The notes beneath the pieces were generated by a model. It was not told where the DNA came from. It did no database searches and worked only from the letters and a program-made list of their open reading frames with translations. A stretch of 39,337 bases of DNA from a bacterium (GTDB taxonomy: Bacteria > Patescibacteriota > Minisyncoccia > UBA6257 > GWB1-50-10): assembly GCA_027310365.1 (NCBI GenBank), contig DAIDAY010000006.1, positions 1-39,337 on the forward strand, written 5' to 3'. A program made the translations under genes and the position numbers. Positions 18,019 through 19,282 of this stretch are shown here, in pieces. Numbering within the stretch: position 1 is the stretch's first letter; each line of letters begins with the position of its first letter.

Positions 18019-19152
18019 CTATCGCATATCAGCCCCGAACTGCTTCTTCGTTTCTTCGATGATCTTTTCCTGAATAAGGTTTATTTCCTCGTTCGTCAGC
18101 GTCCGCTCATTCGAGCGGTAGACAATGCGATAGGTATAGCTTACCTTTCCAGCGCCGAACTTCTCGGCATTTTCATACTTGTCCAAAAGCGACACTTCTT
18201 CCACGAGATCGCCGCCCAAATCGCGAATCACGTCGAAGTAGTCGTTCGGAACGAAACTCGCATCGACGACGAACGAAATGTCGCGGACGATCGACGGATA
18301 CTTACTGACCTCCTTGTAGGGATTTCCCAACTTCAATTGTCGCTTCACCCGCTCATCCGTTGACCATAAGAGGCGGATGTCGGGCAGTTTCATGCTGATG
18401 ATCGCGAGCCGCTCAAGGCCGAAGCCGAATGCCCATGCGTTGTATCCTTCCACGCCGAATTTCTTGAAAACGCTTTGTTTCGTCATGCCGCCGCCCAAAA
18501 TCTCCACCCAACTGCCGTCGACGTCAACTTCCACTTGGAGCGAGGGATCAGTGTAGGGAAACGCGTCGTCCAAGAAACGGTACTTCGCATTTTTCCCGAA
18601 CAAGCCCTTTACGATGTCGCTCAGGGCGTTCTTCAAGTCATCGAGCGTCAAGGGATGTGTCGTGGTGGGTGTCAGGTACCAACCGCCGAACTGGTGGAAG
18701 ACGTTCATGTGCCGCCGGTCGAGTTCGTCCTTGCGGTAAACCTTGCCGTAGCAAACGACGCCGAAACTCTCATGCCGATCAATTTTCGCTTTCACCCCAG
18801 GGAGTCGGGTGTAGTAGTACCACATGACCGTATCATGCGTGCGCAAGATGTGCTTGTCATCGACGTAATAAGTATCGGACTTGCTTCGCGCCGGATGATC
18901 GGGGACGAAATCGAAAAGATCGAAACTCACGTCCGCCGGGACGATTTCCGGAATGACGATGTTGTCGAAACCTCTCAAAACTGGTATCTCCCGCACCTGT
19001 TCCACGAGTTCATACAGCGGACTCCCCGGCGTGCGCGAGAGATCCGGCATCGCCAAAAACCGCCACATGCGGAGTGCGTCAGAATCGGCCCTCTTTTCCA
19101 AATCCTCCCGCAACTTTTTTTCTTCCGTCGTATCGATGACGATATCGGCCAT
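18019..19152 (-). CDS. pheS: Single-chain phenylalanyl-tRNA synthetase: PheS-like catalytic core plus FDX-ACB-like domain (mitochondrial/FARS2-type layout)
   Basis: GKVYRKDELDRRHMNVFHQFGGWYL (motif 2), WAFGFGLERLAIISMKLPDIRLLWSTDERVKRQ (motif 3), then KYPSIVRDISFVVDASFVPNDYFDVIRDLGGDLVEEVSLLDKYENA...SYTYRIVYRSNERTLTNEEINLIQEKI (FDX-ACB-like). Confidence 0.9.
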   Translation of the reverse strand: MADIVIDTTEEKKLREDLEKRADSDALRMWRFLAMPDLSRTPGSPLYELVEQVREIPVLRGFDNIVIPEIVPADVSFDLFDFVPDHPARSKSDTYYVDDKHILRTHDTVMWYYYTRLPGVKAKIDRHESFGVVCYGKVYRKDELDRRHMNVFHQFGGWYLTPTTTHPLTLDDLKNALSDIVKGLFGKNAKYRFLDDAFPYTDPSLQVEVDVDGSWVEILGGGMTKQSVFKKFGVEGYNAWAFGFGLERLAIISMKLPDIRLLWSTDERVKRQLKLGNPYKEVSKYPSIVRDISFVVDASFVPNDYFDVIRDLGGDLVEEVSLLDKYENAEKFGAGKVSYTYRIVYRSNERTLTNEEINLIQEKIIEETKKQFGADMR

Positions 19153-19154
19153 AG

Positions 19155-19226
19155 TACCGGTGGCAGGGATTGAACCTGCGACCTAGGGCTTATGAGTCCC
19201 TCGCTCTACCACTGAGCTACACCGGC
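19155..19226 (-). tRNA. tRNA with CAT anticodon (elongator Met most likely; Ile2 not excluded), CCA not encoded
   Basis: GCCGGTGTAGCTCAGTGGTAGAGCGAGGGACTCATAAGCCCTAGGTCGCAGGTTCAATCCCTGCCACCGGTA; anticodon loop CTCATAA; followed by CT then the pheS ATG. Confidence 0.9.
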
Positions 19227-19245: not shown

Positions 19246-19282
19246 ATTATAAATTGACCGAAACGATTTTTTCAAGTATAAT
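19246..19282. promoter_or_regulatory. Interleaved divergent promoters for tRNA-Met/pheS (-) and tRNA-fMet (+)
   Basis: Plus: TTGACC (19254-19259) - 17 nt - TATAAT (19277-19282). Minus: TTGAAA (19270-19275) - 18 nt - TATAAT (19246-19251). Confidence 0.75.

Follow-up and report, generated by a model that had tools for sequence, protein, structure and literature searches.

The heterotetrameric form of phenylalanyl-tRNA synthetase (PheRS) has been stated to be conserved in all known prokaryotes (PMC3275996). The single-chain mitochondrial enzyme, FARS2, is without editing and attaches Tyr stably (PMC3275996). AARS Online lists the single-chain type, PheRS-M, with FARS2, and its PheRS passages name no bacteria for PheRS-M; likewise, the single-chain form is not described in the part of Mukai et al. 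(PMC5370408) considered here. A search of the open-access literature for PheRS together with Patescibacteria, Parcubacteria or candidate phyla gave no report of a bacterial single-chain PheRS, subscription papers and preprints lying outside its scope. Public annotation may already label some relatives of the gene described below 'phenylalanine--tRNA ligase', because one of them, the clade-2 relative L148, passes the NCBI equivalog cut-off for pheS_mito (263 vs 258.35 bits). The architecture is known; what is new is that bacteria have it as their only PheRS and that its pocket is distinct.

The window (the whole 39,337-nucleotide stretch of DNA that was analysed) contains one such gene, whose features are collected in the table. 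We conclude with considerable confidence that it encodes the only PheRS of this Patescibacteria (Paceibacteria-type) lineage, in the FARS2 layout. This reading draws on the domain architecture, the predicted fold, the presence of a single PheS-like core, the mutual exclusion with pheT, the lack of a B3/4 domain and the presence of a cognate tRNA-Phe(GAA).

Table. Positions in the window of the single-chain PheRS gene, its domains and motifs, and the elements upstream of it.
Feature	Position	Strand	Remarks
Single-chain phenylalanyl-tRNA synthetase gene	18019..19152	-	377 aa, ATG start; matches in Pfam, NCBIfam and the PDB
Class II catalytic core PF01409	18337..19023	-	residues 44-272
Anticodon-binding domain FDX-ACB PF03147	18022..18306	-	residues 283-377
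HDTVMW	18820..18837	-	residues 106-111 = FARS2 His119-Gln124; D107 and invariant W111 are pocket substitutions
Motif 2	18682..18747	-	residues 136-157; R140 and Q154 invariant; G156 replaces FARS2 Glu159
FPYT	18550..18561	-	residues 198-201 = FARS2 Phe232-Thr235; Phe-ring recognition
Motif 3 WAFGFGLERLA	18403..18435	-	residues 240-250; A241 = E. coli PheS Ala294
tRNA-Met(CAT)	19154..19226	-	directly upstream, same orientation; discriminator base ~2 nt before the ATG
Sigma-70-like promoter TTGAAA-18 nt-TATAAT	19246..19275	-	upstream of tRNA-Met/pheRS; consensus match only

The initial annotation had proposed a mitochondrial-type, single-chain PheRS from peptides that are all present in this reading frame, with a catalytic core running straight into an FDX-ACB domain. 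Pfam searches and the AlphaFold2 (AF2) model bear this out: one polypeptide carries a PheS-type core (PF01409 tRNA-synt_2d, 8.6e-49, 166.7 bits) followed directly by FDX-ACB (PF03147, 1.3e-26). Among solved proteins the closest in a PDB search is human mitochondrial PheRS (E = 2e-56), with bacterial PheS next. The AF2 model, built from an alignment of 39 relatives, has a mean pLDDT of 93 and a pTM of 0.88, and its top six Foldseek entries are all apo human mitochondrial PheRS (best E 5.8e-35, TMq 0.75-0.77). The fit to the tRNA-bound structure 3tup is poorer (TMq 0.59, rmsd 19.4), from which we take the model to represent the closed apo arrangement. In NCBIfam the protein lies below the cut-offs of both TIGR00469 pheS_mito (231.2 bits, cut-off 258.35) and PheS TIGR00468 (142.7 bits, cut-off 237.45); it is accordingly filed as a bacterial sister group of pheS_mito rather than as pheS_mito proper. 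The full-length gene, at about 357-399 aa and without internal stops, is kept in 80 further loci, which where named all belong to Patescibacteria/Parcubacteria, the rest being metagenome-assembled genomes (MAGs). For the 38 of these loci that were aligned, identity to the window protein is 59-85%. No relative of the gene was found in viral contigs.

That no pheT lies nearby, as first noted, holds for the whole genome, a MAG of 747 kb in 84 contigs (98.8% complete, 2.45% contamination). Across it, TIGR00472 matches only the FDX-ACB domain of the window protein and a 116-aa stand-alone OB-fold protein, and a profile search for a second PheS core matches only the window protein strongly, two weak matches being long frames that resemble other class II synthetases. 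The B3/4 editing domain (PF03483) gives no match in this genome at E<=1, and all 14 of 14 control genomes score. The initial annotation had left open whether the enzyme is a minimal sole PheRS or an extra one; the lack of pheT, of another PheS core and of B3/4 in this genome favors the former. A normal pheS/pheT pair elsewhere was sought and not found, nor was a phylogeny or set of catalytic residues pointing to another substrate. It is thus very probable that the window's lineage relies on this gene for its only PheRS, one without editing.

The same pattern extends over 200 genomes of the same order with a completeness of at least 70%. Here 129 genomes have pheT only (113 above the cut-off, 16 as pheT fragments), 60 have the single-chain gene only (58 complete, 2 partial), and none has both (Fisher p = 4e-40), which further backs the sole-enzyme option. 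The clearest single case is G131, one contig of 840,672 bp with no N, which carries one single-chain PheRS and a tRNA-Phe(GAA); a search of the whole contig in six frames gave no other PheS or PheT. The same-genus genomes G122 and G188 also carry the single-chain gene. Four families of the order sample (f1, f6, f17 and f27) each contain both PheRS types, which implies repeated switching if these families are natural groups. Phylum-wide, the single-chain gene was found in 27 of 291 genomes, in more than one class.

Eleven of the 200 genomes gave no pheT and no single-chain gene; two of these have pheS, leaving nine with no PheRS of either type detected. One of them, G044, was considered as a complete genome without PheRS and rejected, since 72 kb of it are masked as N, accounting for the missing enzyme. 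Five others (G036, G111, G155, G176 and G193) likewise gave neither type of PheRS; these genomes score well, several carry tRNA-Phe, and their families all include single-chain members. Masking may be the cause here as well. Masking might also conceal genes in other genomes; 60 independent coincidences of this kind are implausible.

The cognate tRNA-Phe(GAA) of the window's own genome lies on contig C55 (L266:4196-4474) and was detected by ARAGORN with introns allowed. Its anticodon loop holds an insertion of ~204 nt, a group I intron (Rfam RF00028, 51.9 bits), which is why RF00005 missed this tRNA; in same-genus G188 the tRNA-Phe is uninterrupted. The pattern TGAAAA... was also tried for tRNA-Phe and discarded, as it matched no better than its reversed control; tRNA-Phe here has G37 (CTGAAGA), which makes that pattern uninformative. 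The loop CUGAAGA and A73 are found in single-chain and pheST relatives alike, and the switch of enzyme thus came with no obvious change in the tRNA. No tRNA-Asn was seen among the tRNAs detected in the window's own assembly.

The active site was compared over 113 single-chain sequences, with FARS2 numbering taken from the PDB alignment and ligand contacts from PMC5521548. Residues R140, Q154, F198, T201, E247 and R248 are invariant (113/113), so that FARS2 Arg143, Gln157, Phe232, Thr235 and the motif 3 Glu/Arg are all retained; A241 (FARS2 Ala275, E. coli Ala294) is present in 112 of 113. Other pocket positions are altered. FARS2 Gln124 is replaced by Trp and Ser121 by Thr throughout (113/113 each), Phe234 by Tyr in 99, Thr120 by Asp in 76, and Glu159 by Gly in 75 and by Asp in 38. 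Positions 120 and 159 pair as Asp/Gly in 75 sequences and Thr/Asp in 37, with one Asp/Asp exception; the alternation of D107/G156 with T107/D156 thus covers 112 of 113 sequences (Fisher 4e-29). It maps to one change on the tree, and the pairing was accordingly rejected as replicated coevolution and is read as a lineage-specific swap. In FARS2, one ordered water, held by Thr120, Gln157 and Glu159, anchors the amino group of the substrate (PMC5521548), and for this reason the pocket carboxylate seems to have shifted across that water. Gln124 and Glu159 are the two FARS2 residues that hydrogen-bond m-Tyr (PMC3275996), and their loss may mean that this editing-free enzyme has a pocket adapted to keep out hydroxylated substrates. 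With several pocket positions changed, the substrate range could differ from that of canonical PheRS.

As the sole PheRS, the single-chain enzyme would activate Phe with ATP and charge tRNA-Phe as a monomer. Before charging, the FDX-ACB domain would swing to the anticodon by analogy with FARS2, in which the anticodon domain swings by ~160 degrees for tRNA binding (PMC5521548). Tyr-tRNA-Phe would undergo no post-transfer hydrolysis, and the pocket, which is unlike that of FARS2 and of every two-subunit enzyme (Gln124 replaced by Trp, Glu159 by Gly/Asp, Phe234 mostly by Tyr), may allow this loss of editing. The gene is accompanied by recG, a nucleotidyltransferase, a GatA-type amidase, an NAD-dependent DNA ligase and type IV pilus genes. 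The abutment of tRNA-Met(CAT) on the PheRS start codon (0-4 nt) recurs in four relatives (L018, L019, L066 and L097), and for that reason tRNA 3'-end processing could yield a near-leaderless pheRS mRNA.

Phylogenetic trees were computed without a site-heterogeneous model from a set with long branches that contains one FARS2 sequence (residues 160-202 missing) and is without alphaproteobacterial PheRS. In the core-only tree, the single-chain proteins, FARS2 and SrmL (a PheS-related ligase) stand apart from all PheS, including Patescibacteria PheS (99.5/99). The combined core and ACB tree recovers a monophyletic single-chain clade (99.3/100) with FARS2 as its sister (96.8/99) and SrmL next; the placement with FARS2 rather than PheS/PheT stands for the one partial FARS2 sequence used. 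AU tests reject FARS2 within two-subunit PheRS, whether proteobacterial (4e-5), other bacterial (2e-4) or Patescibacteria (4e-4), and retain FARS2 with the single-chain clade, SrmL with the single-chain clade (p 0.30) and SrmL with FARS2 (p 0.31-0.33). We take the single chain to belong to an old lineage common to FARS2 and SrmL, and not to derive from a fusion of the hosts' own genes. A wider joint reading can be offered only tentatively, and we would sooner doubt than adopt it as a whole: the lineage would be an old, bacterial and editing-free one, FARS2 would have been obtained from it ready-made and not by joining the end of pheT to an alphaproteobacterial pheS, and Patescibacteria would have repeatedly swapped it with PheST, the pocket being rebuilt (Trp111, Gly/Asp156, Tyr200) against Tyr and m-Tyr.

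The sister position of FARS2 to the whole clade would also fit a horizontal transfer of a eukaryotic (mitochondrial) PheRS into Patescibacteria, a history compatible with the proposed function. We regard it as unlikely: the clade is deep and diverse, with two subclades and several classes, and FARS2 falls outside it; SrmL presents the same layout in other bacteria and a huge phage; and the direction of a transfer cannot be set from one FARS2 sequence.

Considerably less probable is a recent fusion, within the lineage, of the host's pheS core with the C-terminal part of its pheT, by which the layout of FARS2 would have arisen convergently. The domains are the same as those of PheS and PheT, pheST is present in relatives of the same families, and the ACB-only tree places the single chain weakly near Patescibacteria PheT, although its 97 residues are too short to resolve this. 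Against a fusion of the hosts' own genes, the AU test on core and ACB rejects a grouping of the single-chain clade with Patescibacteria two-subunit PheRS (p = 4.4e-7 and 7e-8), the core lies outside all PheS, and one gene family is spread over distant Patescibacteria families.

Slightly less credible again is that the protein is an SrmL-like paralogue in an assembly that lacks the true PheRS. SrmL shares the layout, and its model NF051887 is the top-scoring NCBIfam model for the window protein; however, the score of 233 bits (233.3) is below the cut-off of 300, and true SrmL proteins reach 515-524. SrmL also has His where PheRS and the window protein have Phe (Phe232/F198), and neither the mutual exclusion of the single chain with pheT nor the complete, unmasked G131 without another PheRS agrees with a missing enzyme. 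Two plasmid-borne 'hypothetical proteins' of Azotobacter and Glutamicibacter (L098:3818-4930 and L099:3830-4948) are SrmL members at 515-524 bits, and the His that they carry at the position of the first pocket Phe probably indicates a different substrate. A single-chain core and FDX-ACB protein of a 634,780-bp uncultured phage (LR745206.1, L100:3001-3870) groups with SrmL. Contamination is scarcely worth entertaining even for a MAG of 84 contigs with 2.45% contamination, as the gene is also in same-genus G122 and G188 and its relatives are Patescibacteria.

The sole, editing-free PheRS that we prefer has several implications. Roughly 30% of the genomes sampled from one Patescibacteria order have the single chain as their only PheRS, which suggests that PheT and the editing of Tyr-tRNA-Phe are dispensable for bacteria. 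A bacterial relative is now at hand for the question of the origin of mitochondrial PheRS, and genetic-code work gains a candidate in a natural bacterial PheRS that is small, lacks editing and has a distinct pocket.

Compared with known systems, the enzyme resembles FARS2 (PheRS-M of AARS Online; TIGR00469): both are one chain with a PheS-type core and FDX-ACB, without B3/4, and they share pocket residues Phe232, Thr235, Gln157 and Arg143 and the motif 3 WAFGxGLERLA, FARS2 being both the closest solved fold and the tree sister of the clade. In contrast to FARS2, the single chain here is a chromosomal gene and the sole PheRS of bacteria, is shorter (377 vs 415 aa mature), and differs at Gln124 (Trp), Glu159 (Gly/Asp), Thr120 (Asp) and Phe234 (Tyr). 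SrmL (NF051887) has the same core and FDX-ACB layout, in bacteria and one huge phage, but carries a longer ACB insertion and His at the Phe232 position (3 SrmL-group sequences), where the single-chain proteins have Phe in 113 of 113. The two-subunit PheRS (PheS TIGR00468 and PheT TIGR00472) has a homologous core and FDX-ACB and is encoded by sister genomes within the family, never together with the single chain. Patescibacteria PheT (L007-L017, L163-L166) mostly begins near TIGR00472 position 150-160, without the N-terminal and B2 OB regions, in agreement with the part of Mukai et al. (PMC5370408) considered here, by which many CPR PheT are without a B2 domain. The two-subunit enzyme differs from the single chain in its need for PheT with B3/4 editing. 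Patescibacteria PheT retains Asn254, His265 and Glu334 (Klebsiella numbering), which we take, with PMC3275996 as one source, to be its editing residues, in 16 of 16 sequences.
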